64,000 nt of DNA from Candidatus Obscuribacterium magneticum (lineage in GTDB: Bacteria > Elusimicrobiota > Elusimicrobia > F11). A program made the translations under genes and the position numbers. This document shows, in pieces, positions 22,076 to 64,000 of the stretch. The stretch spans positions 16,208 through 80,207 of the forward strand of contig JAJAPZ010000007.1 of NCBI GenBank assembly GCA_020523905.1. The letters run 5' to 3'. The notes beneath the pieces were generated by a model. That model was not told the DNA's origin. It saw nothing but the letters and a program-made list of their open reading frames with translations, and did not search any database. Within the stretch, counting starts at the first letter, position 1; every line of letters starts with the position of its first letter.

Positions 22076-22137
22076 AATATAATGAGACTCATGATTTACC
22101 ACACTGGCGTTATTCGTTGTTGATGGGAGGTGTCCTG

Positions 22138-24701: not shown

Positions 24702-24710
24702 GGAGAGAAG

Positions 24711-28676: not shown

Positions 28677-28766
28677 GGGGTCAGGTCTCCAGTACTAGAG
28701 AGATTGGGCTGAGATAAAAGTGGCCCATCTTTTCTTGCTCTCTCTAGTACTGGAGACTTGACCCCT
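28676..28766. repeat. Long palindromic (MITE-like) element A
   Basis: Inverted arms of 28 bp (28676-28703 and 28739-28766) with a single mismatch flank a 35-base loop. The ends read AGGGGTCA(G/A)GTC, shared with element B at 30373. The element fills the whole gap between two convergent genes and overlaps both stop codons. No transposase lies inside. It could serve as a bidirectional terminator. Confidence 0.85.
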
Positions 28767-31017: not shown

Positions 31018-31125
31018 AGCAATCTTTAGTTTAACGGGAGGCCCATGACAGGCCTGTGGCATTTCAAAGACAAATTAAGGAAAATGGAACACGTCGGTGC
31101 CATTTTTAGAAGGGAGGTTTTATTT

Positions 31126-32070
31126 ATGCGTAAATTTCAGATCGTTTTCGTATTGACTGTTTTCGGCCTATCCCTCAGGGGATCTCGAGCGGCCGAGGTG
31201 ATACCCGCTGAAGAATTCCATGTCACGCTGGCGGAAGGGCGGGCGGGTCTCGTTCCGGCCGATGCAAGGAAAGCGTCTCCGGCGCGGAAAGGGATTCTGA
31301 TTTTGCCGGGAGACCGCCTGATCACTGGGAAGAACGGGCGGGTTCAGATGGCGACCCGAGAGGGAAGCGTGTTGGAAATCCGGGAAGAGTCGAATCTCCT
31401 GGTGGAAGAAATTTCCGACCGGACAAAAATGTTTTTCCTCAAAGTGGGGAAGTTATTGGGTCGGATTGCCTCCCTTAAAGAGAGGAAGAATAAATCTCCC
31501 TACCGCATCCGCACCCCGGTGGTTTTGGCCTGCGCTCGGGGGACGGAGCTGGCCCTTAACGTCGACGAAAATCAAGAGCTTCAGGCCGGCGTCATGGAGG
31601 GCGAAGTCGAATTTGAAAAAGAGAGGATTGAGGAGGAGCCGGCTGAAGAGTTGAAGCCTGTCGAGGTGCTTTCTTCCGCAACAGTGACCTCCTCCACCGC
31701 TGCAGAAGTGGCACCCGAAGGAACGGCTCCGGAAGGTCCTTCGAAAGTCGTCGTCGGAAAATCCGAAGGACTCATCGCAAACCCGGGGAAACCGATTGTC
31801 AAGACGAACGAAATCCCGCCTTTGCTTGTGAGTTCGCTTGATTGGTTTAAGCAAATCCGTGAACAGATCCCAACCCTTAAGGAAGAATGGAAAGCTCTCG
31901 ATTATCCCAGCCGGATGAAGCTTCGCCAGGGAGTGTTGAGAGAAAACATCACCTGGGAAGTGCCGAAGAAATTAGGTCTGGATCTCGAGCCGCCTTCCAA
32001 GCAACTTGAGAAGAAACCAAGTCCCGCGCGCATTGCTCCGCCCAAACGCGACATTCCCAAACCTCGCTGA
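31126..32070 (+). CDS. FecR-domain exported protein
   Basis: ATG 31126 follows GGGAGG; the signal peptide ends near residue 24 (SRAAE). The FecR core is clear: ILILPGDRLITGKNGRVQMA, EGSVLEIREESNLLVEE, FFLKVGKLLGRIASLKERK, then RIRTPVVLACARGTELALNV, the conserved TP-x(n)-RGTE step of the family. After a Glu-rich and Ser/Thr/Pro-rich linker (about 195-250) comes a helical, basic C-terminus (WFKQIREQIPTLKEEWKALD). Stand-alone FecR-domain proteins bind or present surface structures in the periplasm. It is the last gene before the giant reading frame on the same strand, which suggests but does not prove partnership. Confidence 0.85.
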   Translation: MRKFQIVFVLTVFGLSLRGSRAAEVIPAEEFHVTLAEGRAGLVPADARKASPARKGILILPGDRLITGKNGRVQMATREGSVLEIREESNLLVEEISDRTKMFFLKVGKLLGRIASLKERKNKSPYRIRTPVVLACARGTELALNVDENQELQAGVMEGEVEFEKERIEEEPAEELKPVEVLSSATVTSSTAAEVAPEGTAPEGPSKVVVGKSEGLIANPGKPIVKTNEIPPLLVSSLDWFKQIREQIPTLKEEWKALDYPSRMKLRQGVLRENITWEVPKKLGLDLEPPSKQLEKKPSPARIAPPKRDIPKPR

Positions 32071-32427: not shown

Positions 32428-35400
32428 ATGAACCCACGCGCCAAGGATAAAATACGTAAATTCATAGCGATTTTGGTAGCGGTTGCCCAGCTCCAAACGC
32501 AGGTGGCTTTTGCCGGCTTGCCGGGAACGATGGGCCTCCCTCCCGGATTCGATAAACTTCCCTTCGCCACCAAGTCCCTCGCCAAAAAACTTCTCTCCCA
32601 AGGCCTCGTTCTCTTCCGATCCCTCCCTTACTACCAGTTTCTCGAACCCCAGAGAAAGTCGGATCTGCCGGAAGAGTCGCGGACGACCCCGGAACAGGCC
32701 TTGAGCCGCGACGAAAAGCAGATGAGCCTCTTGAGACAGCTGGAGGAGCTCCAGATCTTCCAGCAGGAGACCTTCAAGAACCGTCCGAAACTCCCCAACA
32801 CCCCCATTGAGATCCTGGATGGCATCTCCACCTACAAGCTGAACGTCAATATCGCCAAAGAGATGAAGAAGGTCTACGAGGGCCGGGCTCAATCCGAAAA
32901 GGAAATGAAAGAGGAGCTCGCATCCATGAAAAAAGCCATCAACGGCGCCGGCGGGTCCGTGCGCACCGAAAAAGACGGCTCCCACTCCTTCTTCCTTCAT
33001 GGTCTCATGGTGGCCAACCGGGGAGCAAAGTATCTGGATGGAAACGGCCAGATCACCATCGTCGACACCCGCCGCATCAAGTACGACAAAGAGAAAAAGC
33101 TCCAGCGGGGCACCACCCGTATTTCCAAAGACAGCCTGGGGAATGTCTCCGTCACGGTGCGGTCGGACATCGAATACACCGATGACTCCAACCCCCACGG
33201 CAAGCAGATTGTGACCTCCTACAAAGACACGATCATGGATCCCAACGGGAACGTGCAGATTGTCGAGCGCGACAACATCAAATACCTGGAAGGGGCCGGG
33301 GTGGAGAAAAAGCAGCGCGGCCAGTTTGAGGTCTCCTACGACGAAGTCCGGACCGATTCCTTCAACAACAAGACGACGAAACGCTGGGAAAACGGCGCCT
33401 ATGTGAAACTCGGCGAGGAGTGGTACCTCACCGGCTACGATCAAAAAGAGACCGATGCCGACAAAAATACCAACCTCATCCACTGGCGCAGCGGCACCTA
33501 TGCCTTTAACCCCAATTACAAGAAATACAAGACCATCAACTCCACCCGCCAGGAATATCTCCTCACCGGTTATGTGCAAGAGGTCACCGATCCCAAAGGG
33601 TTAAAGCGGACGGAAGTGTGGTCCGATGGAACCTACGACAGCCGCGACAATCTCGTATCTTTCGACCAGAGAGACTTAAACGCCGCGGGGGAACTCCCCA
33701 CCCTCATCCAATTCCGCAACGGTCGGTTCGACGCGTGGGGCCGTCAGATCGGCTATGAACGGAAGGAAACCAATGCCGACGGCTCTTACGTCAAAACGGT
33801 CCGATTGGACACCACCTACAACAAGCTCGGCGATGTGACCTCGTACTCCGACCGGATTGAAGGTTCGGACGGATCGCGCTATCGCGTGGACCGCTTTGGG
33901 ATTGATTACAACCGGAAGCGCCAGCAGGTCGCTTACAAACAAACCACCATCGGTGAAGAGGGTCGGGTGACCTCGGTCACCTGGTCGGCCCTCCAGGAAG
34001 GTTTGAACAAGGAAGCGATTGCCGGGCCGGGCGAGAAGGGTTACGACGAGAATGGCCGACTTAAGGGGTATGAGGAAACCACCGAGGTCGACGGCCTCGT
34101 CATGGCCCGTCTTGTGACCGACATCACCTACGTGAAAGGGGATCAGGCCAGCTCCAAGGAGGTCACTCACACAACGGGACTCATGAACGGCGAGGATGTG
34201 GACGTCACCCGGACCGTCGACACCCAGCGCCTTTCCACCTCCTGCGGCAAAGATGGCGATGCCGCGGACTGCAGCGACGAGGGGGCCCAGGTGATTGCCT
34301 ATGTCGACCGGGTCACCGATTGGGGCATCGATAACAGGAGCAAAACCATCCTCCGCGACTTGCTCATGGAGATTGTCCGGAATTCGATCACCGTGGAGGG
34401 ATTTTTTGAGAGGAAGACCACCACGGGAGGCTCCCAGCGGCGCGACGCCGGCCAGGATGATTCGGAAATCATCAACACGGTGAACACCACCCTCCAGACC
34501 AACACGGTCTACGGGGGTAGCGGCCGCGTGAACAGCTATACCCAAGTCACGACGGATTCCACAAATCCGGAGAAAGTCACCACCAGCCGATTCTCCCATC
34601 TTCTCTACAACCCGGCGGGCCAGCTGATCCAATCCCTTGAGCAAGCCCGCATTTCCTTCTTGAATGATCTGAACGATGTGAAGGATGGCGACCGGGGTTA
34701 CGACATGGAAACCGAGCGGTCCAAAATCGCCTACGACGCCTTTAATCGCATATCCGATGTTCACACGGTCACCCGGACGATGACGCGTGAAACGGATATC
34801 ACCACCGTCGCCGACCGGACCAACGTGACCTATAACGGAATGGGAGACGTCGCCCGCTACACGGAACAAGTGGTGACCAACAGCACTCCCGGTTTGACCG
34901 AAACGACCCATTGGCAGGGAAAAGACTACAGCGCCCTGGGCCGGCTGCGGGAGTCGGTCCAAGAAGTGCAAAGTACGGGTGTCGACGAGCAAGGTTTTCG
35001 GTTGGATTCGTTGAGGTCCATCCATACCTCCGGCATGCAGTACGACGACCGGAACCGCCTGATCGGTTACAGGGAGGTGATCCGTAGTTCCGATGCTCCC
35101 GGCGTGACAACGACCCATACCGTGGGAGATCCTCAAACTGGCGAAGCGGGAATCTTCTACGACACCCGCGATCATCAGTTGGTGTTAAAAGAGGTGACCG
35201 TTCGTGAAGGGGTGGGCGTGCAGGAACAAACGATCACCGAAAGGAATATGTGGCAGGTCGTGATCGATGAGGCTGGCATATTGCGGGGGTATACGGAGGT
35301 TACCGAAACCTTATCGGACCCCGACGATTTGGTGACCACAAATGTGATCTCCAACATCCTTTGGTCGGATTGGGGAATGAATGAGCAGATCCGATCCCGC

Positions 35401-38400: not shown

Positions 38401-41400
38401 CAGGAGCGGTCTGTTCATGAATCCGGCGGGGGGCTCGATCGGCACTCGACGGTTATTTTGCGGGATGTTTCCTACGACCGGTTCGACCGTCAGCAGGGTT
38501 ACAACCAGGTGCAGTTCGACGGGTTGGCGGTTGTGATCGGACCCCGGAGCTATCAATGGGATGACCGGTTTAATGAAGCCAAAAGAAATATGGATGTTTC
38601 CCCAGACTGGGGAGACCTTTTCTTTTATGGGGATAGTTTGGGCGACGCCGATCGCCGCACTCTCACCGCGGGTCGAGCTTTGGCGGATCATTTGGTCACG
38701 GTCACCGCCATGCGGGGGATCAATTATGACCTTATGGGCAACCAGTGGGGCTACTTAAGAGTTCAGCGTCAGGCGGGACATCAAGCCGGCGGCACAACCG
38801 GCGGAGCCGCCGTTTTTGAATCGGCCCAGTCTACCGTGCGGTCCGGCTCGCAGTATTACCATTCGGGGCGGCAGGCGGGGTTGGCGAGCGGCTATAAAGA
38901 GGTCACAAGGACAAACGCCTCCGCCATCGAAACCATTTCCCAAACACGCGGCATTCAATACGACAAGGGCCGCCAGACAAGCCTCTCCATTCAGACAGAG
39001 CTTAAAGGGGAGGTCGTTGTCAGGGGCGAGAGGAAGGAGATCCAGAAAAAGACGACGACGGCCCGGCACGGCATCCTGTACAACGCCGCCGGACTTCAGT
39101 CCTATTCCATTGATGACACGGTGGAGAACGGCCTTCGCAGCACAACCGTTACCGAGAACCTTCAATTTGACGCCAAGGGGCGCGTGATGAAAACGGAATC
39201 CACGACGTGGGTGGAAGGGGAGACCACGCGCTTGGCCTATTTCCTGGATGATCAGGAGATCGATCCCTCCCTTGTCGCCCTGTTGGAGAAAAATCCCGAC
39301 CTGCCCATCCAAGGCATTGAAATCCGCGAGGTACCCCACCGGGTGAGCGAGAAAACCGTCGTCACCCGCCAGGCGATTGAATACGACGCCTTGGATCGCC
39401 AGGTGGCGTACACGGAGGTGACCCGTTCTCCCGGGGGTGTCCTCACAGTCACAAAAGTAGAAGGCGTTGAATTCGACAAGTTTGGCCGCCAGACCCGTTA
39501 TCATTCGGTGACGCAAACCGAAGGGTGGGATCTGACCTATTACATTGACGGCGTCGAAGTGGACGCGAAGACGCTCCTCGATCTGTTGAACGGCCGGACG
39601 GCCCTTCAGGATTTTCTGGATGGGGCGGAGCTCGATCCCCAGATCCTCATCGATCAGTTGGATGGGGGGAGCGTCCTGGATTTATTGCCGACGGGACAGA
39701 TGACGATTTGGCAAGCCCTTTCACTCGGACTCATTGTCACGGGACGGAAAAAGACCCGCATCGAAGATCCCGACCATTTGGATCCGGATCGGGCCAAGGA
39801 CTCCACCCGTTACGATATTGAGTATGACGCGAATGGGAACATGTCCCGTTACCAAGAAATAATGACGGATTTCAAATCGGGGATTCTGAGCCAGGAGACC
39901 CAAGTCCGGATGACGTATAACGAATTCAACAAGGTGGACTCCCAAGTTTCCGCCACCGAGACCTCTTACGGCGTTCATCAGGACGGACAACCCGATGTCC
40001 CTCCTCAATCCCAGAGTTTTATGGAGAGTCGTATTTTTTATGTTTATGACGGACGGGGAAACCTGAAAGGCGCCGGCGGGGGTTCCGTCACCACCAGCGA
40101 AGATTTTGTCGCAGAAAGTCGCACCCGCCAGGTCAGCGAGGATTACTTCAGCCTGATCGGCTCCCAGGCGAAGAACGTGTTCTCCAAAGTGACGTCCCGG
40201 ACCGTGAATGGGGACGGCGTCGTCATTGAAGGGAAGGCCACGCGCTTGAACTCCTACGACCTCCGGGATGGTTCCGCTCTGGCGTCTTATGAGATTGGGA
40301 CATCCGATACATACGATGCGGTGGCGAAGACCTTGACCCACACCAAGAGCCGGCAGATTTCAACAGCGGTCAACGGCGAACTGAAAACGTTATTGACTCT
40401 CAACGACAACCTGACCTCTTACCCTGACAAATCGGAGCGGAAGAACCAGCGCGTGAGCCAGTCGTCTATGGTGAATCATTATGGTGAGGATGGCCACCTC
40501 GCCTATGCCGACGGCTTCGAAGGTGCCTTCGCCAATGACGGTCATGACAACTTGACCTATAGCCGCTCTCAACAAACTTATGAAGCCGTGGGCGATCGGG
40601 CGCGATTGAAGACCGTGCGCAATGATTCTTTGGGTGAACGTGCGGATGGGAAAAGCCTTTCCCGAAACCACAGCGTGATCGATTACGACCTACACCAGAG
40701 CGGGCCCCTCATCGGGGTCGTGAAAAGCGCGCTGGAGACGGGCCACTTCGCCAATCGCGAGTGGGTCATCACCACGGATGAAACCGGCAAGATTAAAGAC
40801 AGTGGTTATCTGTTTTCGAAAGGAGACATCACAAATCTCTACGATGAGGTCTATTTGGGGGAGGCGAAATTGACCCGCTCCGTTGTGAAGACGGATTCCT
40901 GGAGAGCCGACGGGACCTTCACGCACGATGAAAAGTTTACGGAGTATTTCTATGACAGGCTGGGTCATGTGACAGGGGCGGAAGGGGCGGGTGAGGATAC
41001 CCGGCATCGCGAGCTGGAAGATGGGGAACTGAGCTCTGGGGGTGTCAGCACAACGAGCGTGTATAACGAGAAAGGGGATCTTTACACCCTGACCACCACC
41101 CACACGCTGATGTATTACCAAGATGTTATCAACAACCAAGCACGCCTGACGAAGTCCGTCTCTGATTCAGATACGGTTTATCCGTTTGGTTCGGTAGCGG
41201 ACACTCAGCATATCGAGGTGACTTACGGAAATGACCTCGACACCGGGGAGGTTCTCGAGGCCCGGGGCACGGGACATTTCAATAATCACGAATGGGGCTA
41301 TTCGGATGGAGTGATCGTCAATGTCAGCAATACAATGAACGGGCAGATTCGGCAGGCCTACGAGGTCATCCGCGGCGAAGCGAAGCTGGTCAAAACAACC

Positions 41401-56400: not shown

Positions 56401-59400
56401 GACACCAACGTGGTTTATACCTATGACGGGAATGAAAAGCGCACCCTGGGAACGATCACGGGTCTCTCCAAGCGTTATGAGTATGATCCCGTCACGGGAG
56501 TCGATTTCTCTCTCGCCTTCGAAACCGTCGAAACCGATACCATCGAGACGTATGAAGAGCGGGGCGATAAAACCCGCCGTATCAAGTCGGTGTCGAGCAG
56601 TTACCAAAGCAGCATGGACACCTCCTTCAGCGAACAGCACATCACGACTTTCTATGCGTTCGATGGCGACGGGCAGGTGGTGGAGCAATTCGATTTGGAT
56701 GGGGATGGTGATTTTGATCAGGAGAACGAATGGACCCATGGCCGAGGGACCAGCCTCAGCCATTCCGGGCACGATGATCCCAATCTCGCATGGCGAAATG
56801 TCCCTTCGGATAAATGGTTCGACACGACCGTGGGAGAGTTGGACCAGACCTACGGGATGATTTCGATCCCTGTCGGGCCCCACTTCGTCGGTTGGGATCC
56901 GAGCGGACAACCCCGGATGATCAATACGATTAATGTGGCCAAGTTGCATCAGACGGATACGCAGAGCGAAACCCGCGGGCGGGACTCTTCCTACAACCAC
57001 CAGACGATGACCGTTACCAACCGCTATTGGTTGGACGGCTTCCGGATCAAACTTCTTGAGACGGTCGGCGACGGCGAGATCTTGGAGGCGCATTCGGGAC
57101 GGGATGACACGTGGGGGCCGGATTATCGGGATCCGGCGACCTTTTCCCCCCGCAATCAACGGGAAATCAACGAGACGGAGTGGTGGGATACAACCGTCGG
57201 CACCATTCATCAGGAATACCAGGTTTTCTTCGACGCCATCGCCAAACTGAAGGTGACGACCAACCGTTCGGTTACCTTGAGTCGCGAGGGATCCTTCAGT
57301 TATTCCGACTCCCAGACGGTGAACGCCTATACGGAGTCGGGCAAATTGGTGGAGTGGATCGATTTGAATCAGAATGGGGAAAGAGATTTTGGGGAGGTGA
57401 CGGAGGGTAATAGCACCACCACCAGTTATTCCGGGGCCGATGCCATATTCATCACGGTGCCGGCGAATTGGAAGACGCTTTCCGAGCCGAATCGCCAGGC
57501 GTATTTCGATGAGTTGAATCCGGATAGCTTTATCACTGTGGCGCGGGCGCACGATGCGTATCTTCATCCAACGTCGCAGAATCCGCCGTCGGGGCCGGTG
57601 TGGTGGGATTCCAGTTATTCCACGACGCATCAGGATTACGTCATTCTCCGGGGCCAGCAGGCGCGGGTCCACCAAAGCCAAACCACGACAAACACGTTTG
57701 GTGTGGACGGTTCCTACACTCTTCAAAATATCACAACGACCTATAATTATGACCATCGCAACCGTTTGGTGGATGCCAACGCGGCCAACGCCACCGGCTT
57801 CACCTTCAATGATGACGGCAACGGCAGCAACTCCATCGGCCAGGTGAGGCAGCAGTTCATCTCGGTGAACGGCCAGGCCCGGATTCATCTGAGCGAGACA
57901 AAATCCGATCCGGCCTCGACCGACGGCGCGGTCTCTCACCAGGCGTCCTACACCGAGTACGCCTACACCTCAGAGGGGAAGATTGATCTACCAAATATGA
58001 AAGGGCGCACCGCCTCCTGGACCATCGATTCCGAAGGGAACATGACCTCCTCGGGGAAGTTGACGACCGATGGCTATGTGGATTTCGCCCAAAGCGCCGA
58101 CAACCAGCAGACCTTTGACGTGTTGAACGGCCAGGCCAAGGTGCTTGTCACTCACACCCGGACGCTGACCCATAATATTGATCTTTCCCTCTTCCAGCAG
58201 GATCTCGATGTGGAGAACTTCTATGACCGGGTGAACAATCGGGCCGGCGGTCATTATTTAGGCCGGTTGATTGGGGCGCACGGCTCGGGCACCTGGTCGG
58301 CGTGGGACCATGACCCGGCGCGCGGAGGGAGTCCACATCGGACGGATGGTTTTGTGACGCAGAATTACCAATTCATCACCGGCCAGAACCGGCTGGTTGA
58401 GGCGGGGACCTATCGGGATCACAGCTTCCCGCCCTCCGGCATTCGCAGCGATTCCGACGGGATTTGGACGTTTGTGCCGGTTCCCATTTATGCGCCGCCG
58501 GCGGACGAACACCTTTATGCGCATCCCGAGAGCTATTCCTTGACACGCTACGATGCCAACGGCGCCGTCATCTGGACCCAAAGCGCCAGCGATGTTTTTA
58601 ACAACGAAGGGTTCCTCACGCACTCCTGGCAGAAAGTAAATTATGTGGACGATGACGGGGACCGGCGCCGCGATCATGGGTATATCACCGGCCAGACCCA
58701 CCGGTACGAGTATACGGTGGGAGGTCTTCCGGACGGCATAAAAACGGACGTGTCTATGGAGGACACTTATTTTGACACCGTTGAGACTTATGAAGAGGTC
58801 CATTCGGACAGGCTCGGCATCGATGTGACCCGCCGAATGATGACGGACACCAACTCGCGAACTTATAGCTTGGATGGGTCTTTCAATAAACAACATCTGG
58901 TGGTGCATTACGCGTATGACCACAATGCCGTCATGGTGGAGGAAAACGAGCGGGGAGAGAAGACCTACGGCGAAGGGACCTTTGTCAGCCATTCCGGCCA
59001 GGAGCTCGAGTTCGATCCGGTACATCATCCGGAACGGGGCGAGACGCTGGAGGAATACTGGGCCCTGGCCAATCCCGCGGATCTGTGGGACGCCACGATC
59101 GGTTCCCTCGACCAGCAGTATCGGGTTTTCCACTTGGGGCCCAATGGTGAAGTGGGGGTGGCCCGGCTGGCCCGAACCGATACCGTCAGCGACACGGTGG
59201 GTCGCGATCTCTCCTTTAATCATCAGGAGCAAACCACCTTCCAGGCCTATTTCCCGCCCGGCTATCCGCCGGACAATCCGACGCCGCTTCTGTTAACCAA
59301 CGAGTTCGACTACAACGGCGACGGCGATATCGACGAAGAGCTGGGCGAAAGAACGATGACGACGGGCAGCTTCACCAGCCACAGCGGCCGCGACGAATCC

Positions 59401-62400
59401 GATCCGGATCCGTTTTCCGGTCTTTTTGCGGCGCCTTACCACAACCTTATGGAATATCTGGTTTCCGTTCGAAATATCACGGATCCCCAATTGGTCGATC
59501 AAACCAGGCGGGTGGTCATGGGGGACCTCGCTCAGGCTCAAGAGAATTACGTCGACCTCAGCGGGAACAGTTTGTGGTGGGACACGACCACGGGGACGAC
59601 GCGAACCGATTACATGGATACAAGCAAAGTCTTTTATCAATTGAAGGCCAAGACGCAGCAGACGGACTCCCTCACCTTCTCGCGCGACAATTCGATGAAT
59701 TACCAGCACAATCTGGTGACCTACAAATACAGCAATGAGTATGTGGCTCGTGATGTTCCCCTCACCGATCCCGCCCGGTGGAATGCCAATGACAGTGGGC
59801 CGCTTCTGGTGGGCGCCTACGGCGTGGGGAATTTCATTCAGGATGACGGGAACGGCAATTTGACCCTCGGCTTCACCGAACAGCGTTACAAGATCACCCG
59901 CGGCCAGCGGGCTCAAGTCGGCGAAGCCACCACCATTACCGATTCGTCGGGTTCGGAGGGCGGGACGTCGCACACCCTCACCACTGTAACTTACAACTAT
60001 GACGACACCACGGGCCGGCTCAGCCGGTCCGCGCCGGCCGTTGGGCATGGCGCTTCCTTTTCCATCGACGGAGAAGGGAACATCACCACCAGCGGCGTGA
60101 TTGGGACAAAAGCGGCCAGCGACGAGACGCCCTTTGATGTCACCGATGAGAAGGTTCTTCCTTTTGCCGCCGATCCTGCAGGAGACCAGACAATCAACCA
60201 GGCCGAGGGCCTCGTGGGCCAGTGGGGGAGCGTCCAAACCTTTACCTTTATTAATGGGCAGGCGAAGAACTCCTTCACCGATTCCATCACCCGATTTGAC
60301 GGGATCGAAGGCGGGGGCGTTCAGCAATCTGTCCAGATTCAACGAGTCCATAATGAAAATTTTTACAGCGCCATCGGCCAGCTGGATAAGACGCGCCCGC
60401 CGGTCGGAACCGGCACCTGGGTGAGCTATGACGGCTTTGAGTCGGCGGAGCTTCCCCTGGGCCACCAGACGCGCGGGGGCCTCTGGCAGGATTACACCGT
60501 GATCCTGGGCCAGGCGCGGCTCATCTGCAGTCAGCAGAACATCGGGTCTACACGCCTGGATCCTCCCGACATCACTCGCGCCGATCTCAATGGCGATGGC
60601 GACGCCAATGAATGGGTTGAGGTGCCGGTTCCTCTATTCACGCCTCCCTCGGGCCAGAATTTGTATGCCCATACGGAAAATTACGCGGAGAATTATTACG
60701 ACGAAAACGGCGTTCTGACCCTCGCCCAGTCCGCTTCCAATAATTATAGCGCCGACGGCATCCTCACCCACGGTTGGCAGCGGGCTGTTTACAGCCGACA
60801 GACGCTCACCCTGCCCGATCCCCGGGATCCCCAAAGGACCATCCAGCGGACCGTTCGTGTGGGCGGGGATATTCACAGCGAAAGCTACAAATATGATTAC
60901 GAAGAGAATGGGGCGATCCATGTGCCGCCGGATTATCCGCCCCTGGAGACCACCATATCCAACAGCCACGAAGACTATTCGGTCCTGGGCCCTCTGTTTT
61001 TTGTGCGGCGGGTGAGTGTGGATTCCAACGCCCGCACGTATGGCATGGATGGCTCTTATAACGATCAGCACCTGTTTACGACTTATGCTTACGACGCCAA
61101 CGCAGTGGCGGTTGAGCAGATCGATCTGAACGGGGATGGGAATTATGATGATGTCACCACAGAAACCATCGGCGGCCGCGAGCAGAGACGGTATGAAAGA
61201 ACCTTTGGGGCGGGGACCTTTAGCGGCCACGCCGGCCGGGACGATGAGAACATGAGTTGGGGCGACACATTAAATGATCACCCGGAGCAGGTGTGGGATT
61301 GGACGGTGGGATCGATCGAGCAAGAATACAAAGTCTTTGGATTCCCGCCGGGCCGCGTGGGGGGGCCGTTGGTGGGCGTGGCCCGGGTCAGCAAAACCAC
61401 GAGCGTTTCGGATACCGTGGGGCGGGATACGTCCTATTCCCATCAGGCGGCGGTGAACACCGTCGCCTATGATCCACGGACGCTGCGCGTGGTTTTGTCC
61501 TACGACTATGACGGTCCCGGCGGCAACGACCCGGTTCGAACCGAGGGGATTGTGCATTCGTTAAGTCACAGCGGCCGGGATCAAACGGATCCGGATCCCT
61601 TTAGCGGTCTGGATGTCTCGGGGGCCGATGGGATGAATGATGATGACCGCCGGGCCCTGCAAACGGAGCTCTTTCAGGCCCAGGACGACTACGTCGACTC
61701 TAGCGGATACAGTTTGTGGTGGGACACGACCGACAGCGAGACAACCCAGACCTATATCATCCCGGGGAGAACCAACGATCCGCTTCATGGGCGGTTCAAT
61801 ATCCATAAGCTCGGCAAAACGACGACCGTCTCCTCCACCATTTCCCGGGATCACTCCACCAACGGACAATTCATGGAAGTGATCTATTGCTATTCGAAAA
61901 CACGCCCCCCCTCCGCTTCGCTCTCCACACGAGACATTTTAGCCGCATCGGATGACGGCCCCATTCTCGTAGGGGCGGTGGGGCGGGGGAGCTTCTGGGC
62001 CCAGGATGGTTCGGGTGGCGTAACCGTGGGGCAGATGGAACAGCGCTACCGGGTGATCCGGGGCCAGCAGGCCCGCCTGGCCGAGCAGTCGACCTTGAGC
62101 GACGGGACCGGGTCCGATGGCTCGCCCACTCACAGCCTCACGACGGTGAATTATGACTACAACAATCGAAACGGTCGCTTGCTCAGCGCCGGAGGCGTGG
62201 GGGCGTCTTATTCCTTGGATCAGGATGGAAATATCACCCTTTCCGGCAGTCTTGTTCGAAAACAGGACATTGTTTATTCGGATCGATTCCAATACGGGCC
62301 CATCGAGGACGAGGTGGCGGGATTTGCCGGTGTCGATCCGGAACTGGCCCGCATCAATGTTCCGGCCGATCTCGCTCAGTTGGTCGGCTATCTTGATGCG

Positions 62401-64000
62401 GCGGGGAATCTGGTCCCGCTGGGGACGACGCTTCCCGATCAAACGTGGCAGGGAAGTAACGGGATCGTGCAGGTGTATGAAGTCATCCAGGGGCAAGCGC
62501 GCCTGGACACGTCCACGACGCTCAGCTTGAGCGTTGGCGCGGACGGCTCCTTCAACGTTCAAAATTTGACGGTTAATAATGACTACTATCGCCCCGGAGA
62601 GACGGGGCGGCCCATCGGGCAACTCAAGAGCGCCGTCGGGACCGGCCGCTGGACCACGTGGAATGAGCATGAGGGTTTTGTGGTCGGCTCGGCCTCCGGC
62701 TATCCGCCCGCTGGCAGTATCTGGCAGACATACGACGTGAAAATTGGCCAGGCCCGGATGACCGAACACCGGCAGCACATGGGCAATACGCCGACGGATC
62801 CGGCTCTCGTCCCGGATGGGAGCGGCGGTTGGGCTAGAGATCCGGCGACCGGCCTCTGGATCATGGCGGAGAACTCCACCCTCTTTCCCGACACGCGGAC
62901 TCCTTATGATCCCATTTACGCGCATACGGAAAGTTACATGCAGAATAACTACGATCGGGATGGCGTCCTTGTCTGGTCGGGCAGCGTCACGGAACAATAC
63001 GGGGCGGACGGCCTTGTAAACCGGTCCATACAAAACAGCGTGTTTCATTTGGATGACCAGGGTCGGCGCGATTGGGGCGAAATTCACGGCGAATCCAACC
63101 GGTACTCTTACGGCCAGATGACGGACAGGACGTGGGCGATTGATACGTCTCAATCAGTCGAGACCACCTCCTTTAATACGCGGGAGGAGTATTCCCTCAT
63201 CAGTCCGAGACAGCTTGTCCGCCGGGTGAGTGTTCATACGGTGTCCGACACCCTGGGCATCGATGGCTCCGACAACCATCAGGATTTGACCACGACCTAC
63301 GCCTATGATGACAACGGTGTCTTGGTGAAAGAGATTGACCTCAACGGGGACGGCGACTTTAATGACCACGTTGGTGAAGGGGAGAGTCTCCGCTACGAAA
63401 GGACCCAAGGGGATGGTGATTTTACCAGCCATTCCGGGTACTCGCCGGATCCGATGGATCGTGTGGCCTTTGACGAAACGAAGGGACACATCCATCAGGA
63501 GTACGACGTCATTGTCCTCAGTTATCGGGACATCCGGCCGGACCGGCGGGTGGGTGTGGCTCGGATGAAGCAATCCGTGACGGATTCCCAAACCACGAAC
63601 CGCGATTGCGTTGACGCCCAGGGGCACGTGGATCCCACCAAAGGCACCGTCACCGTTCAGCACGCCGTGGTGGATTACACGAATGATCCGCGAAGCACGC
63701 AGCTTTTGGCGGCGGAAGGGAACTCCTATTTTTCGACGAAAGATCCCTTTAACAATTTCACGAGCGGTTTCACCCATCAAACCTACGACGTCAAATTCAA
63801 TCAAGCCAAGCTCCGGGTGAGCGACACCAGATCCTGGACTGGCGATGAAGGCTGGTACGCCGCCTATAACGCCAGCACCGGCGATTATAAGTCCTTTGTT
63901 CCCCGTCCCGATTTTGACGTCGAGCGGGCTTACGCGCATCCCCAACCCGGCACGGACCGGTCCTGGTCGCGTCAGCAGATGACGGTGACCAATGATTACA
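32428..64000 (+). CDS. Giant exported YD-like-repeat protein, at least 10,524 residues, open at window end
   Basis: From ATG 32428 the frame runs without a stop to the last base; I read it codon by codon along its length and found none. The in-frame TAG at 32413 and the absence of an earlier ATG fix the start. Residues 1-29 are a Sec signal (positive start, hydrophobic core, AFA|G). Residues about 30-200 are non-repetitive and partly coiled-coil-like (LLRQLEELQIFQQETFK). Then come YD-like units in three styles, interrupted by a few unique islands. Typical phrases: YDALGRL, YDDNGRLLA, NDGYGN, GQARL, QTYEII. Only about nine Cys occur. This suggests a very long surface fibre or adhesin. No RHS core, protease or toxin motif is seen; the C-terminus, with any sorting signal, lies outside the window. 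Proteins of this size have been reported in Omnitrophota. Confidence 0.93.
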   Translation, partial: MNPRAKDKIRKFIAILVAVAQLQTQVAFAGLPGTMGLPPGFDKLPFATKSLAKKLLSQGLVLFRSLPYYQFLEPQRKSDLPEESRTTPEQALSRDEKQMSLLRQLEELQIFQQETFKNRPKLPNTPIEILDGISTYKLNVNIAKEMKKVYEGRAQSEKEMKEELASMKKAINGAGGSVRTEKDGSHSFFLHGLMVANRGAKYLDGNGQITIVDTRRIKYDKEKKLQRGTTRISKDSLGNVSVTVRSDIEYTDDSNPHGKQIVTSYKDTIMDPNGNVQIVERDNIKYLEGAGVEKKQRGQFEVSYDEVRTDSFNNKTTKRWENGAYVKLGEEWYLTGYDQKETDADKNTNLIHWRSGTYAFNPNYKKYKTINSTRQEYLLTGYVQEVTDPKGLKRTEVWSDGTYDSRDNLVSFDQRDLNAAGELPTLIQFRNGRFDAWGRQIGYERKETNADGSYVKTVRLDTTYNKLGDVTSYSDRIEGSDGSRYRVDRFGIDYNRKRQQVAYKQTTIGEEGRVTSVTWSALQEGLNKEAIAGPGEKGYDENGRLKGYEETTEVDGLVMARLVTDITYVKGDQASSKEVTHTTGLMNGEDVDVTRTVDTQRLSTSCGKDGDAADCSDEGAQVIAYVDRVTDWGIDNRSKTILRDLLMEIVRNSITVEGFFERKTTTGGSQRRDAGQDDSEIINTVNTTLQTNTVYGGSGRVNSYTQVTTDSTNPEKVTTSRFSHLLYNPAGQLIQSLEQARISFLNDLNDVKDGDRGYDMETERSKIAYDAFNRISDVHTVTRTMTRETDITTVADRTNVTYNGMGDVARYTEQVVTNSTPGLTETTHWQGKDYSALGRLRESVQEVQSTGVDEQGFRLDSLRSIHTSGMQYDDRNRLIGYREVIRSSDAPGVTTTHTVGDPQTGEAGIFYDTRDHQLVLKEVTVREGVGVQEQTITERNMWQVVIDEAGILRGYTEVTETLSDPDDLVTTNVISNILWSDWGMNEQIRSRHTDTTSNEAEAVVTAVDYDVTQFDVYGRAIETREDIRRTTLEDIRHTSSAVDIHTIRSINTTFNGLGQVGLKVEVTQNPETGVTTLVKQSSSYDTEGRLADQVEESTTRGANPAFEKTVTTHSSLYTYDAGSGRVLGYVQEVTSTDAPLLVTTTQRSGIDYNLEGQQLGWKDFVHEIGGDIDHTFTTERSDMAYNRNRLVKFKDVTYDGEKQEPNELTRTQTLETFFNEETGLVMQTEQRTTETGLMTTPETGPSGTGALLNHIREVIRSDIEYNTQGQETDYRETIHDNQTPELTEETARTNAVYTGGLLTSYTETSHRFSADESFDTTVRVDHTLGYDGFGRLQEDINTEHDAYGAVLDHIRRQWYDGTGRNNKTWEETKRRGTDVVQTVHRSNIRYTQRGDQASYTETQQSTERPDVTVTVEWQARGGTREGYNEMGQLVGFHQVETSEGETLNRAVETDRSQIQYTNVGQIARYNEVRHDSATPDLEEQVLWTGDYNGKGLLAQNNVTTHRLDRSPGGTLLDVTVEQDIQNSYDALGRINHSITESHETSPGSIINATTREEKFDIQYLQDQQVGYALRNWDAYNISHNIFSTTIRRNVVYDDLRRLMEYDEEVDAPVYDGSNKLLPRLTHWSAEDYNSDGQLTGFVKDEIEYDEVEPVQFNPAEMTPRSETQTVHSRVQYNTDGTEASYYESSHQTWRDGAETLSEVTRSGIHNNGLGQMSAWREMGTNTTFQDGVLLRELAVDTTWKAGGPGCEGGYLRSGRMGAYQQVVNQVSLRDIFQVTETTQWSGAVYNKEGSLVTYNQNVLRRGLSQEKMIIPTEWSLLSELQKAEYLSRFVYVLDDGRAVAWRDLPTLARVDLVAIGRARINGKDVRLRAMVVQSRLDSTVETQRLTTLYNEMGLTKEYNELVKENSLKTNREWKGLAFNAKGQAMQVHEVTEGPTGEITTADRDRIQYDLHNRMLGYREESHSDFSPALTTRQIVLNSYDALGRLSDQERSVHESGGGLDRHSTVILRDVSYDRFDRQQGYNQVQFDGLAVVIGPRSYQWDDRFNEAKRNMDVSPDWGDLFFYGDSLGDADRRTLTAGRALADHLVTVTAMRGINYDLMGNQWGYLRVQRQAGHQAGGTTGGAAVFESAQSTVRSGSQYYHSGRQAGLASGYKEVTRTNASAIETISQTRGIQYDKGRQTSLSIQTELKGEVVVRGERKEIQKKTTTARHGILYNAAGLQSYSIDDTVENGLRSTTVTENLQFDAKGRVMKTESTTWVEGETTRLAYFLDDQEIDPSLVALLEKNPDLPIQGIEIREVPHRVSEKTVVTRQAIEYDALDRQVAYTEVTRSPGGVLTVTKVEGVEFDKFGRQTRYHSVTQTEGWDLTYYIDGVEVDAKTLLDLLNGRTALQDFLDGAELDPQILIDQLDGGSVLDLLPTGQMTIWQALSLGLIVTGRKKTRIEDPDHLDPDRAKDSTRYDIEYDANGNMSRYQEIMTDFKSGILSQETQVRMTYNEFNKVDSQVSATETSYGVHQDGQPDVPPQSQSFMESRIFYVYDGRGNLKGAGGGSVTTSEDFVAESRTRQVSEDYFSLIGSQAKNVFSKVTSRTVNGDGVVIEGKATRLNSYDLRDGSALASYEIGTSDTYDAVAKTLTHTKSRQISTAVNGELKTLLTLNDNLTSYPDKSERKNQRVSQSSMVNHYGEDGHLAYADGFEGAFANDGHDNLTYSRSQQTYEAVGDRARLKTVRNDSLGERADGKSLSRNHSVIDYDLHQSGPLIGVVKSALETGHFANREWVITTDETGKIKDSGYLFSKGDITNLYDEVYLGEAKLTRSVVKTDSWRADGTFTHDEKFTEYFYDRLGHVTGAEGAGEDTRHRELEDGELSSGGVSTTSVYNEKGDLYTLTTTHTLMYYQDVINNQARLTKSVSDSDTVYPFGSVADTQHIEVTYGNDLDTGEVLEARGTGHFNNHEWGYSDGVIVNVSNTMNGQIRQAYEVIRGEAKLVKTTSWSTTNNRDGSYVIIDEANPSVTTYVYNDKGQLVGGQSSSRSRSNEMGTRNAADPAAIEISQTVTVTQQKIVAIMGETRTLWSESASDSVQLDANGDPLGSRTGDPEGSKSHQKIRVDYTYDMKTSRVLGGRGHGTTQSMDYYGNVSLGTIDQEFIGKANQARLFKSTTVTDTENVDRTYSHQQTEMVNNYDDNGLLMGASSMGAFVNVNESGDTSDGQISQTFRVLNGQAKLNTNTTITNSAGSDGGTSYQAVTVRYSYNGLGYLTGAHVGEGDGYLESTDSEGNQTRGNIRQTYEIILNQARLTSSTTVTRMEHVDGAFTDQTLVIFYENDSIKGLLQNAYSRDPLDPTTPEGENHWETWYIDGEGHRQEVHGTIVQTFDLNVITRTGQAKVVESKSLADRVTYNTLTHEFGGELPIHPHMNSYSLNTYDERGSLTSAFSDSRRVNMAGEITRQIQIALYTTDGDGNRVSGHIYGSTYREGADATGTGTTRIESTDFDTTEEYTLLPYKTFMGQMVERARRTKSFTRSTTDSMDGSDNHTETEVFYAYNRDGRMVEENESGFRTYGRGFSIGHSGFGSDRNPWDEVRTVIDQAYEIIPIGIGVAKLKKNVSTSNTYHYRLDAAGQPAAWLGMLGMRSRLEARHGRLGRNGETIEPTTLDGIDPPFGPTGLRLAIEGGRDGTTNRQILTVTYENSRSARVLRGQGIGEFHQEDRYGNRTEGKIYQDYAGIANQARLRTNRTITDTINRDDSTNHQEIVTEYRLNQRTGRILNVRGTGDFNSNDGHGNVTVGSLQQTYHPGFIDRYQLARVLSTITDSTSSNRDGSLTVSHNVVDNTYDETDHVGLLIGVDGYGNSTTNDHGNITETSQIQLYDLTLLRETGQARVREQRSHSTTTNRDRSRSYQSMLITNDYDAFDASLENTEGHGLLRTDDDRGGFTVGLITQIYDQDVLDATGQPKVSKTLTEVVTADETDFDSATFQPALRADVPADDYNQRAAFEGIVNHLKQYNPDDPTHRNSDRTWVFQSSTVEYGYDGLGRLKSATGSGSSLSDDGFSRDGIHNITVGTVQQIYSIINNQAKVVENRSHTTTHATDQVEGDRNVQDVTVYNAYDDNGVLMAVRASGLFTSIDTSRNVTRGLLTQIYDQELLKNTGQAKVKDSITHSWGFNRDGSIVKQKMVVTTRYDEDGRILDDSDGKGNFIGVRGEGTSEADDGFGNITFSNVTQYYNRELTIQLGRGILRNTKTGGTAYNRDGSSAVIESNQENAYTPGGKLSNATGWSSSLLDDGFGNYTLSYTNQEYDEIILSRTGLLRVSKAVTSTNPARGDGTTAGAKNQDGSYTVQNMTVTYAYDASGVAVMEGGQGREGRTSGIGDGFSDDGYGNKNASVINQTYVILNNAARVSGTDSQNFTLDSNYVDGQARVLGLNRDRTWSLQWSHTDNFYNADGKLVASDGWVKGVSSDSWGSLAEGQAIKTMGWDNAVGTVASGHLTWSESDQVYTGLFGQPKLIRQTTNSWSTSVDDVDSFQRVTVSYEYDPSGQMQGAKGEGFTQSEDHYENTTFGTLEQTFLGIRGQARLVESRSEIDNRNVDGSSGHQSMTVTTSYDALGRYESAVGRGTSDSDDGYGNITTGSTVQEYDRNLLTVYGQMKVLKTTSQSFTQNHDKSSTRQTAVVDYEYSAEEDVVSGYLVNAGLLVGAHGTVDFNSDDGSKNITTGYTLQDYDLALLGNTGLLRVKKASTYARTDNLDRSVMTQVTIVDYAYDGQGGIRADRTTGQTASIAYDGFGNTTRSGAFVQEPGSRELTITDVGGTQTYGEFMGQARLVQSITTSHTLDDWDPHGATNDQTTVLTNTYDSRGRLVAAYGSGGFTSHSGTAPDNIAFDTTTGQVRQFYVILNGQAKLQAAETSTATQARDRSRSDQRMVVTYSYNNDGVLEGAAGTGEGTGDDGYGNVTVSRIFQFYEILLGQARLTRSVTDTTSTNRDGSSNVQIQTLDNRYQESTGLLAAALGQAQFTSNDGYDNITLGTVSQTYFIHRNQAKILETRTLSDTRNLNKSTQHAETTVHYTYQPLSGEPRALRLVDADGQVDFTSRDQYGNRTVGHTEQDYDEGVLATTNQAKVNWTRTISDTTNLDGSTSHQDMTVHNEYDGAGNGILVRAYSDPGTVSSNDGFENITDGLLYQTYVVIAGLAKLATSQTVSDTYILDETSNHQNMTVTYHYNGAGVLISAVGEGMTYAFDGKEGYTAGRIDQTFDIIHGQAVVRKSQQLSWTSSEEEMGSREDPLRNHGNFWSQLEITGGRFEAPLRNRDDSWSRQDVTTEYEYNGLGELDGASGSGSALANDGEDNYTASVITQAYEIILGQAKQTVSTNASFSSTALGEGSFEAPHINPDGTWTNSLNQVVNSYNTLGHLQFVAGSGTGLSFDGFNFMASETRQNYDVEYLHRHGLAKISSTSTKSFSSDADGHGSYYKPLTLADGSWNIQESRVDYCYDDTCGQLLTNGVLTDASGHATFESDDGHGNKTVGTTDTEFDETVIGLTGQLKAREVVNKSDTFNRDRPLGSSLSPSAHQEITVTYVNDPVTTKLESASGTGWSLSNDGFGNFVKTDITQIFEMIRGVARLTETRSESFTSNAAGGGSFGDWEHLETAPPSAVNQDDSFSFQYSVVTNRYTAGGQLYSTSGQAVTLSNDGSGDYYKTGRIEDGLGNYTATGRLIKVGAGTYRMEDAIRQDYDIIRGQARLVRSLSRSFTSDAGWNGSYESPLADRVKNADRSWNRQEFVLTNTYDGNGVLTNTEGFGRALSNDGMKADGTGNYQASNIRQTYEIIHGSAKLRQAVTESFNSDALGHGSPAAPVAQTDDAWNSNTAVTTYDYDYEGRLIGASGLTHGLSNDGLGRFTASQGLQFYDADLIRQFGQAKLTQTISRSYTSDGQARGTYENPLPNSDATWSRQENTVDYGYSPKGKLATAGGQGISFADDGHGNISEGTSSQEFVIALGQAKVYKTTTNTETFNRDGSGSFTTMIVTNIYHTKQNDADRWFGYLEDVTGFGLSLSHDEGGRLTRSEITQDYDEGKIAELGLVKLRLTFTRMYSVNFAPNHQGGNTYLNPGVYEDGTWVRQKMTVVNIYDTGGKLTSGLGLGDGLSNDGFNNFMASFIHQDFVVKGGDLRLVQTVTNSWTADYDPNQGDSVEGKVFGEYVEPHRNRDKSRSRQHMTVTNEYFDSGRLKSSEGHGQSLSEDEFGNLTKSFIDQVYDEETILELGQARLTGTHTRSITAGRLTLTEAEGLSFDYFVQRARDGSASPDGSWSWQDVRVFNTYDDRGRLLKTRGEGSSLSNDGHGNYTGGQIQQRYFIKEGRALLDSSLNRSFTATLRDPQDILTFKGSYESPERDFDRVQSVQEVTTRQIYDENGRRTGVVGKGTGNTDDGSGNKAISSIQQIYSQEFLAMGFEKLDEVITATRALNKDRTRSDSTAHQIYEYGPIVEGENTYIRLRNVTGFTDTVANDGSGNITKSHTDESYNQRLLDELGQIKRESSTTVSRTYGRDGNFRKDDTILAFRYDDNGRFVDVQGGGRFVSKLLQGQVDTNVLEPDGIVTSVGTITQTYDIGVLQTHGRTRLIDTKTLAESVSGEPTKQMEVVDRTNQIRGTIQWNRTGELLGASFNDALTGDNYIVKKEGDVFFLVYRDEEGRPVKHQLNVRTEDVGGTITEIMSFEDDDVRFMLDYLKDGTDLRNPHLVLFRRGQGAAFEFGEPQETIFLRETTRYGAYSPELGLGWHELAVVRAPDGTLTTLGYLAQNGIHFVLERLIEGENRWVLSYIAPDPVSGGLSENTVEGGFVGTDFVGDDGFTYIEGLNFSGGSASIKANLPSLAGMTVSLIELEKLNTRDNQIQLMDTTFNYDAQGTLLNAWSRGTFMGETAGGDRVSGSIINHYTVINNQGRILATERYTNTANTDYSSSHSYEITYNELDSRTGVQTGASGWSMTAAEDGFGTITLTRSNRTFEMISGQARIVKQLTHSSTYENYGTPAERLLSYTDPYVQVNRYDDNGRLLAVTDEMGRDTIVITSTNFEYGYHQGQLIQEAVSVTESRVRQKFVVIEQQAKLDEAVTESRVISADGSETHQTSQMDYILSPRGTLLSADGFSSSVSLDANGFETKTVVKQNYIILKDQAKLGSQATEVTTRDPEGHIVSHQSPVSLFYHYNARGLLADVPVTDKDGYPNIESTVENFDFGYDETSGVKRIQEGNTSITHLTQVYVVVNNQARVACQRSQTDTFDTQPAHHLVSRQNEFTLVYNYDHNGRLASVRDGANGDNIVTLTSESWDYADADHPDEIITRGVSVSEQVYDLVAGQARVVAQTVVDSRTYEVVWAVGGAEHPVPPIERLLSRQIRPSVLHNIYSAGVSRPVDERRFDVRFLEGAGQFLAVAGVDTAGNLMDGVLVEQESYEYADSTDPFSPTSTTKTEAFQTYTVIGGQARVSSVNTTGSTVGVDGAITYIGSTLEDGQRVERGNWTVNLYDRHGRLQDMFASAISVSHSGFTDGRPWDTTVSESYSTYIFINGQGKVSKTESRSITRGRDDSYNEQKGTTYFGYDEYGRLLEDPAKTFGTSTFKSHSGFEPDGTPWDETTGTQQIAYRVIHGQAKQVDTTSISRAQARDGAFTDSVSHTHFALNEDGQIVEERGNEKTFGEVASLANDGWGNLTYTGLLSPDNKSLLKAGVEQTYDIIPGLGQARLVKSVSNSETKNLDGSYTYQTSETVNTYYRSGPLLGQLETSAGHVSSLSEDQNLTYTVAETTLEYDIINNQARLRTSTNTSYATGADGSPSHSLSVTRYENDGDTGKLLGASGTSASWSVDAEGNYTESGKIGFDAVNSREFIETEGGWQTYRLMFGQARAVSSHSLSTTHSVDGSVNTQDFYTITEYHPDTGRLKAQRAFGGWSTADPLGNVTEGETRQWFEILTGQARMTFSHSYRTSAGPLTAHTVSQVDNTYNSLGMLVTSNSLSGNYSPDGLFTASDTNVVYTYDGNEKRTLGTITGLSKRYEYDPVTGVDFSLAFETVETDTIETYEERGDKTRRIKSVSSSYQSSMDTSFSEQHITTFYAFDGDGQVVEQFDLDGDGDFDQENEWTHGRGTSLSHSGHDDPNLAWRNVPSDKWFDTTVGELDQTYGMISIPVGPHFVGWDPSGQPRMINTINVAKLHQTDTQSETRGRDSSYNHQTMTVTNRYWLDGFRIKLLETVGDGEILEAHSGRDDTWGPDYRDPATFSPRNQREINETEWWDTTVGTIHQEYQVFFDAIAKLKVTTNRSVTLSREGSFSYSDSQTVNAYTESGKLVEWIDLNQNGERDFGEVTEGNSTTTSYSGADAIFITVPANWKTLSEPNRQAYFDELNPDSFITVARAHDAYLHPTSQNPPSGPVWWDSSYSTTHQDYVILRGQQARVHQSQTTTNTFGVDGSYTLQNITTTYNYDHRNRLVDANAANATGFTFNDDGNGSNSIGQVRQQFISVNGQARIHLSETKSDPASTDGAVSHQASYTEYAYTSEGKIDLPNMKGRTASWTIDSEGNMTSSGKLTTDGYVDFAQSADNQQTFDVLNGQAKVLVTHTRTLTHNIDLSLFQQDLDVENFYDRVNNRAGGHYLGRLIGAHGSGTWSAWDHDPARGGSPHRTDGFVTQNYQFITGQNRLVEAGTYRDHSFPPSGIRSDSDGIWTFVPVPIYAPPADEHLYAHPESYSLTRYDANGAVIWTQSASDVFNNEGFLTHSWQKVNYVDDDGDRRRDHGYITGQTHRYEYTVGGLPDGIKTDVSMEDTYFDTVETYEEVHSDRLGIDVTRRMMTDTNSRTYSLDGSFNKQHLVVHYAYDHNAVMVEENERGEKTYGEGTFVSHSGQELEFDPVHHPERGETLEEYWALANPADLWDATIGSLDQQYRVFHLGPNGEVGVARLARTDTVSDTVGRDLSFNHQEQTTFQAYFPPGYPPDNPTPLLLTNEFDYNGDGDIDEELGERTMTTGSFTSHSGRDESDPDPFSGLFAAPYHNLMEYLVSVRNITDPQLVDQTRRVVMGDLAQAQENYVDLSGNSLWWDTTTGTTRTDYMDTSKVFYQLKAKTQQTDSLTFSRDNSMNYQHNLVTYKYSNEYVARDVPLTDPARWNANDSGPLLVGAYGVGNFIQDDGNGNLTLGFTEQRYKITRGQRAQVGEATTITDSSGSEGGTSHTLTTVTYNYDDTTGRLSRSAPAVGHGASFSIDGEGNITTSGVIGTKAASDETPFDVTDEKVLPFAADPAGDQTINQAEGLVGQWGSVQTFTFINGQAKNSFTDSITRFDGIEGGGVQQSVQIQRVHNENFYSAIGQLDKTRPPVGTGTWVSYDGFESAELPLGHQTRGGLWQDYTVILGQARLICSQQNIGSTRLDPPDITRADLNGDGDANEWVEVPVPLFTPPSGQNLYAHTENYAENYYDENGVLTLAQSASNNYSADGILTHGWQRAVYSRQTLTLPDPRDPQRTIQRTVRVGGDIHSESYKYDYEENGAIHVPPDYPPLETTISNSHEDYSVLGPLFFVRRVSVDSNARTYGMDGSYNDQHLFTTYAYDANAVAVEQIDLNGDGNYDDVTTETIGGREQRRYERTFGAGTFSGHAGRDDENMSWGDTLNDHPEQVWDWTVGSIEQEYKVFGFPPGRVGGPLVGVARVSKTTSVSDTVGRDTSYSHQAAVNTVAYDPRTLRVVLSYDYDGPGGNDPVRTEGIVHSLSHSGRDQTDPDPFSGLDVSGADGMNDDDRRALQTELFQAQDDYVDSSGYSLWWDTTDSETTQTYIIPGRTNDPLHGRFNIHKLGKTTTVSSTISRDHSTNGQFMEVIYCYSKTRPPSASLSTRDILAASDDGPILVGAVGRGSFWAQDGSGGVTVGQMEQRYRVIRGQQARLAEQSTLSDGTGSDGSPTHSLTTVNYDYNNRNGRLLSAGGVGASYSLDQDGNITLSGSLVRKQDIVYSDRFQYGPIEDEVAGFAGVDPELARINVPADLAQLVGYLDAAGNLVPLGTTLPDQTWQGSNGIVQVYEVIQGQARLDTSTTLSLSVGADGSFNVQNLTVNNDYYRPGETGRPIGQLKSAVGTGRWTTWNEHEGFVVGSASGYPPAGSIWQTYDVKIGQARMTEHRQHMGNTPTDPALVPDGSGGWARDPATGLWIMAENSTLFPDTRTPYDPIYAHTESYMQNNYDRDGVLVWSGSVTEQYGADGLVNRSIQNSVFHLDDQGRRDWGEIHGESNRYSYGQMTDRTWAIDTSQSVETTSFNTREEYSLISPRQLVRRVSVHTVSDTLGIDGSDNHQDLTTTYAYDDNGVLVKEIDLNGDGDFNDHVGEGESLRYERTQGDGDFTSHSGYSPDPMDRVAFDETKGHIHQEYDVIVLSYRDIRPDRRVGVARMKQSVTDSQTTNRDCVDAQGHVDPTKGTVTVQHAVVDYTNDPRSTQLLAAEGNSYFSTKDPFNNFTSGFTHQTYDVKFNQAKLRVSDTRSWTGDEGWYAAYNASTGDYKSFVPRPDFDVERAYAHPQPGTDRSWSRQQMTVTNDY
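37879..38046 (+). other. Unique insert in style I repeats
   Basis: Within the giant frame, about 56 residues (WSLLSELQKAEYLSRFVYVL, DDGRAVAWRDLPTLARVDL) break the YD pattern. It has the look of a small helical hairpin. A related phrase, NWKTLSEPNRQAYFDELNPD, occurs at 57467-57526. Confidence 0.5.
39541..39750 (+). other. Unique Leu/Asp-rich insert in style I repeats
   Basis: About 70 residues (YYIDGVEVDAKTLLDLLNGR ... LDPQILIDQLDGGSVLDLLP) form an amphipathic helical island. The opening YYIDGVEVD resembles YFLDDQEIDPSLVALLEKNP at 39240, so both may be copies of one inserted element. Confidence 0.5.
42658..43260 (+). repeat. Isolated early copy of the style III module
   Basis: HPHMNSYSLNTYDERG, TTDGDGNRVSGHIYG, the Arg pair at 42964, DSMDGSDNHTE, AYNRDGRMVEENE and YGRGFSIGHSGFG follow in the same order as the matching parts of the units at 58522-58990 and later. 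It therefore belongs to the style III family but sits some 11 kb upstream of the main block, within style II repeats. Confidence 0.65.
52381..53040 (+). other. Non-repetitive island of about 220 residues in the giant protein
   Basis: The repeat pattern stops at 52381 and resumes near 53041. The interval contains VFFLVYRDEEGRPVKHQLNV, VRFMLDYLKDGTDLRNPHLV, GLGWHELAVVRAPDGTLTTL and SGGSASIKANLPSLAGMTVS. It appears to be a mixed alpha/beta globular domain with no catalytic motif I recognise. It is the longest unique segment after the N-terminus. Confidence 0.65.
54200..64000 (+). repeat. Repeat style III of the giant protein: higher-order unit of about 2.2 kb
   Basis: Whole multi-unit blocks recur. 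One anchor, an Arg pair before S-V, lies at 56575, 58831, 61006 and 63220 (steps 2256, 2175, 2214). Another, S-x-S-x-D-x-EGN-x-T-x-SG, lies at 55912, 58015, 60055 and 62209 (steps 2103, 2040, 2154). Each block includes YAHxESY, LTHxWQ, VEExDxxGDGD, GTFxSHSG, a WWDTT segment and a GQ(Q)AR segment. The earliest block (54.2-56.4 kb) is looser and shorter. The last is cut by the window end. Confidence 0.8.

Follow-up and report, generated by a model that had tools for sequence, protein, structure and literature searches.

A giant open reading frame and its relatives

The window, a 64,000-nucleotide stretch of Candidatus Obscuribacterium magneticum (G000:C115:16208-80207), holds the beginning of a giant, conserved gene, which occupies 32428..63999 on the plus strand. 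The frame opens with an ATG at 32428 and has no stop through 63999 when the window is read in frame, giving 10,524 codons and bearing out the original prediction of an uninterrupted frame of more than 10,500. The last base of the window is also the end of contig C115 (80,207 bp); thus, the real gene is longer and its 3' end is absent for technical reasons. At the base composition of the region, a frame this long would stay open by chance with a probability of ~10^-180, and stop-free stretches in the other five frames extend no further than 594 codons. GC content at third codon positions is 0.67-0.75 throughout the frame. The predicted mass of the visible part, 1,165 kDa, is in line with the earlier estimate of at least 1.1 MDa. 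A promoter and terminator scan found neither. AT skew is positive (0.05-0.20) across the whole of 32428-63999 and mostly negative upstream.

Collinear relatives occur in two other genomes. The complete one, G001:C10, comes from another genus, comprises 18,143 codons (54.4 kb), and reaches its stop within a 316-kb contig. The other, G002:C91, reads through 3,608 codons, a 2-N gap, and a further 7,191 codons up to its contig end. When the window protein was cut into 70 pieces of 150 residues each, all 70 matched both relatives, with collinear best matches for 66 (G001) and 68 (G002). Identity to the G002 protein is 54% over 3,522 and 52% over 6,313 aligned residues. In the window protein, the piece at residue 10,351 begins to match near G001 residue 9,829, so ~8,000 codons of the window gene are probably missing here; a search for this missing middle in its own genome did not find it.

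An assembly artefact or a non-coding open frame might be suspected in a genome assembled into 137 contigs at 71% completeness and 13% contamination. However, beyond the collinear relatives, the ratio of nonsynonymous to synonymous change per site (pN/pS) against G002 is 0.38-0.53 in all 11 segments, a rough measure given that synonymous sites are saturated (dS 1.9 or more). Self-blastn of the giant gene (E <= 1e-3, plus strand) returned three short matches of 47-139 bp at 67-81% identity, which indicates that no block of DNA was multiplied by assembly. On these three grounds we rejected the artefact, which we regard as having a negligible chance of being right. The original prediction had allowed for an internal stop or multiplied repeats; neither is seen in the assembly or in the relatives.

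Architecture and predicted fold of the product

The protein begins with a predicted Sec signal peptide (32428..32514, plus strand; residues 1-29, ...AFA|G), recognized by eye and by a hydropathy peak. In the window part, the signal peptide alone passes the transmembrane-type hydropathy threshold, and the complete G001 protein has two weak hydropathy segments near its C-terminus. The signal peptide lies in a conserved N-terminal region (32428..33927, plus strand) that shares 52-65% identity with four other sequences by sequence comparison. Two repeat zones cover most of the remainder. The type A zone (33154..39858, plus strand) consists of RHS-like 31-residue units with the consensus TTVRSGIQYDALGRLTGYKEVTTDSGGPETT; at E <= 0.05, 43 domains were counted, 41 of them at residues 243-2477. 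The type B zone (40036..63840, plus strand) was delimited by profile search and has a 66-residue consensus opening with VTYAYDENGRLVGARGTG; it contains 84 domains at residues 2537-10471, and an 85th lies at residue 1083. Median spacing of the B units is 85 residues, against a profile of 66, and the zone is broken by a gap of ~265 residues without a unit detected by profile search (52258..53052, plus strand).

The repeats are real though divergent. Neither unit profile found a domain at E <= 0.01 on reversed or five shuffled sequences, while the 84 B units share a mean pairwise identity of 27% (maximum 54%). Blocks of ~730 residues toward the 3' side have 36-41% mutual identity, perhaps a trace of block duplication. 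The exported giant repeat protein of the original prediction is genuine, with export itself predicted from the signal peptide.

The relationship of these units to RHS proteins is suggested by weak sequence evidence and by structure prediction. Pfam and NCBIfam gave nothing usable on the giant itself: RHS_repeat scored 15.3 bits (E 0.028) on the protein and 21.5 and 16.9 bits on the unit consensuses, all below the cut-off of 22, and its E value on the type A (short-unit) consensus was 3e-4, again below the Pfam cut-off. A PDB sequence search with profiles of the B unit and of the f1 and f4 C-termini (f1, f4, and f6 are our family labels) reached a best E of 0.027, to unrelated proteins, and PADLOC on the N-terminal region and two C-terminal fragments gave a single weak match (E 0.069). 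AlphaFold2 predicted four B units as one continuous antiparallel sheet with a predicted local distance difference test score (pLDDT) of 93.4, in which each ~66-residue unit forms four strands. The input was alignment A4, made of four-unit blocks; the six-unit alignment A3 had poor register and was not used for folding. Foldseek placed teneurin first for this model, yet with a template modelling (TM) score of 0.11. Among the structure matches listed, teneurin is the only RHS-type shell, and the lack of others is not counter-evidence.

By inference, the A and B units would be distant members of the RHS/YD repeats, the four-unit sheet fold would hold for the remaining B units, and the sheet probably curls instead of staying flat. 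The weak E values and the all-antiparallel-strand prediction point to an RHS-like product, with RHS_repeat below the Pfam cut-off. Porin matches raised the alternative of one giant outer-membrane barrel or several in a chain, which we hold to be very improbable; the hydropathy of the units led us to reject it.

Distribution of the family

Across the 340 genomes of the phylum, window's own included, the N-terminal region is present in 17 and B units in 16, and every genome with either match belongs to the window's class. The two named relatives of the same family (G002:C91 and G003:C132) are titled Elusimicrobia, and on these titles we rejected an Omnitrophota host; the window's genome likely belongs to Elusimicrobia too. 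The original prediction had named a few groups such as Omnitrophota for comparable giants; an essentially Omnitrophota-bound distribution is not supported, as Elusimicrobia giants are also mentioned in PMC12057145 and PMC11573180. G003 has the N-terminus and no B-unit match, in an assembly of ~530 contigs. A protein search with six B units gave 0 hits among 7,996 scored candidates, and one with the full-length B region gave two proteins.

Several further sequences bear on the extent of the family. The window's genome encodes a second giant N-terminus (G000:C122:5807-7642), 53% identical to that of the window and 69% to that of G003, with CHASE2, ABC, and FecR genes of its own; it is either a paralog or contamination, the bin being 13% contaminated. 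In another genome, the end of G015:C3 lies within a B-unit frame of 5,096 codons and the start of G015:C20 within one of 18,984 codons; if the two are one gene, it would exceed 24,000 codons. P0002, a partial protein of 7,425 residues labelled Chlamydiota bacterium, carries 51 B units; either the family extends past Elusimicrobia or the record is misnamed.

The C-terminal domain

The last 500 residues of the complete G001 protein have matches in four of the 196 genomes of the class, all in family f1. The match in the window's own genome is on contig C88, whose first frame (355 codons) is open at the contig start. Two others, G002:C23 (3,376 codons) and G003:C521 (1,477 codons), begin mid-gene and end with the C-terminal domain. 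Related opposite-strand genes, by eye a response regulator and a histidine kinase, lie next to the ends on C88, G002:C23, and G003:C521. Because C88 carries a matching gene end, the 3' end it holds probably belongs to the window gene or to the second N-terminus on C122.

A JAMM-type metallopeptidase motif lies near the end of seven of the eight related frames that have an end, among 16 frames examined. This count omits G006:C5 (its frame stops but another B-unit frame follows), P0001 (uncertain 3' status, no motif), and frames running off their contigs, and it includes G003:C521 although no B unit was detected in its 1,477 codons. The pattern was widened to HVH post hoc, after the G008:C12 tail was inspected by eye, and the shuffle control was run with it in this form. 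E173, H222, H224, and D243 are invariant in 8/8 sequences, and the third residue ahead of D243 is T or S, matching the JAMM pattern E ... HxH ... S/TxxD. The end encoded on C88 has a predicted JAMM/MPN fold, and the domain can be regarded as a predicted zinc metallopeptidase. Another zinc-type motif, HExxH, is present close to the end of four giants from f4 and f6. The f1 C-terminal domain is the same in 4/4 f1 genomes; by these comparisons it is conserved, not polymorphic. The window gene itself would likewise end in a JAMM domain, judging from its relatives.

Upstream neighborhood and toxin-bearing paralogs

Directly upstream of the giant gene lies a gene for a FecR-domain protein (31045..32070, plus strand; Pfam PF04773, E 8.6e-11). 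It has a relative at the same position in G002:C91 and G000:C122, and none was matched beside the G001 giant. Farther upstream are conserved neighbors encoding an ABC transporter ATPase (29570..30346, minus strand), an ABC-2 type permease (28765..29580, minus strand), and a CHASE2/nucleotide cyclase sensor with 60-73% identity (26631..28676, plus strand). The CHASE2, ABC, and FecR genes also adjoin the N-terminus on C122. A cluster of Tad/Flp-pilus-type genes follows (20763..25469, plus strand), encoding CpaB/RcpC (TIGR03177, above cut-off), a TadA-like ATPase (TIGR03819 below cut-off, T2SSE above), and two T2SSF proteins; relatives of these genes lie upstream of the G001 and G002 giants. An epimerase gene is likewise found upstream of the giant, and most upstream neighbors have relatives in the same order next to the G001 and G002 giants.

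The same region contains four copies of a palindromic element resembling repetitive extragenic palindromes or miniature inverted-repeat transposable elements (REP/MITE-like), ATTCCGGCGAAAGCCGGAATCCAG, with 0-3 mismatches and none in 100 shuffles. They are found at window positions 22007-22071, 25488-25511, and 32110-32133, and one is in the gap before the giant gene. Elsewhere, window positions 11974-13287 encode a 437-residue protein with a CHU_C/FlgD-Ig domain at its C-terminus.

G001 also encodes two paralogous giant frames with A units and no detected B unit. One (G001:C6:178957-208887; 9,977 codons) has an Ntox10 C-terminal type domain (27.5 bits vs a cut-off of 26.8), and the other (G001:C17:23341-46764; 7,808 codons) has a Tle3 C-terminal type domain (28.5 bits vs 27, with no single stretch passing alone). 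Contact-dependent, toxin-like delivery was considered because these A-unit paralogs carry Ntox10 and Tle3.

Proposed function and alternatives

Altogether, we tentatively favor an exported one-sheet protein that would form an RHS-like stalk or sheath of great length on the surface and offer a C-terminal JAMM-type metallopeptidase to other cells; a long single-chain surface stalk with a metallopeptidase tip is the most likely arrangement that we infer. The giant would exit the cell through Sec, build the stalk or sheath on the surface, and display the metallopeptidase at its tip, where the enzyme might act on a neighbor or release the tip upon contact. The "surface or predation structure" of the original prediction is a guess, to which the JAMM-type C-terminal domain and the paralogs with toxin-type domains are now added.

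The main rival to an enzyme acting on a neighbor is that the giant is an adhesin or cell coat, its sheet purely structural and its JAMM domain a protease that acts in maturation, trimming the giant or its neighbors after export. This is a serious possibility, although we lean away from it. The conservation of the JAMM domain and the failure to recognize an immunity gene beside the f1 C-termini, where small uncharacterized genes were not taken singly, would suit a coat, as would the second zinc-type motif of the f4 and f6 giants. RHS cores carry the aspartyl-protease cleavage pattern P..DPxG[LYW]; its longer form is found in 0/30 frames and the short form once each in 4/30, and where this motif is absent another protease may do the cutting. 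The FecR protein upstream also has a weak likeness, below cut-off, to the surface adhesin Lsa33, and Omnitrophota giants have been interpreted as adhesins or coats (PMC10066038). Against a coat stand the toxin-type domains of the two A-unit paralogs and the lack of an adhesin domain in the Pfam matches of four window pieces.

Those same paralogs would fit an unusually long but otherwise canonical RHS polymorphic toxin, in which the JAMM domain is an antibacterial Tox-JAB-type toxin; PMC3482391 describes Tox-JAB-1 behind RHS repeats as well as Tox-JAB-2 in polymorphic toxins. We find this improbable, however, since three C-terminal fragments scanned at E values of up to 1 matched no Pfam toxin model, the domain type is identical in all four f1 genomes, and no immunity gene was recognized. 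Finally, a bolder variant of the stalk is that a chain of 18,000+ residues winds hundreds of antiparallel strands into a hollow tube, an RHS cocoon stretched to a nanotube, through or at the tip of which the zinc metallopeptidase would reach another cell; this seems unlikely.

Comparison with known systems

Giant genes in Elusimicrobia and Omnitrophota have already been reported (PMC10066038, PMC12057145, PMC11573180, PMC13104272). Like the giants of Omnitrophota and other PVC-related bacteria, the window frame exceeds the 20-kb threshold given in PMC10066038, with 31.6 kb visible here and 54.4 kb in the G001 relative, has few recognizable domains, and occurs in a genome with Tad-type genes, which that paper ties to predation in Omnitrophota. 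It differs in that its named relatives are Elusimicrobia, in its RHS-like repeats and the JAMM C-terminus of its relatives, and in hydropathy: 42 helices are reported in V. archaeovorus, whereas the window part has only the signal peptide. Among the four window pieces scanned, no SecA-like helicase had a Pfam match; the 3' part of the gene lies outside. Such a domain is reportedly mentioned in the abstract of the West-Roberts preprint, and secretion genes near giants, a feature shared with the window gene, are reportedly described in that preprint.

Like RHS/YD proteins (Tse15, Tc toxins, teneurins), the window family has short repeats that include a YD..GRL turn, and it combines a predicted continuous antiparallel sheet with a C-terminal enzyme. 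In contrast to them, it has a ~66-residue four-strand unit, an RHS_repeat score below cut-off, and, in relatives, a JAMM domain where a variable toxin would be; the complete relative is also >10x longer than the 1,590-residue Tse15, whose beta-cocoon served for structural comparison (PMC11461821). JAB-type toxin domains occur in RHS-repeat proteins (PMC3482391), and the pairing of a JAB/JAMM-type domain with RHS-type repeats is common to these Tox-JAB toxins and the giant family, but the latter lacks a Pfam toxin match or recognized immunity gene and its domain is conserved across genera. A ~6,000-residue protein of Ca. Menyafoubacter is described with a signal peptide, no transmembrane helix, and an RHS label (PMC12057145); the beta-helix and lyase domains reported there have no Pfam match in the window part. 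By title or abstract start, we found no JAMM-ended RHS-like giant in the literature, subscription papers and preprints being outside the scope of this search.

Implications

These analyses turn an anonymous giant open reading frame into a defined, testable family: one member is complete at 18,143 codons, both repeat types have profiles, the main repeat has a high-confidence fold prediction, and an enzyme is predicted at the end. The megadalton protein need not be handled to make and test short pieces such as four B units or the JAMM domain. Were the sheet to wind into a tube, the single chain would build an assembly of exceptional length, and the tube, if real, would represent a new class of contact machine consisting of a single molecule.
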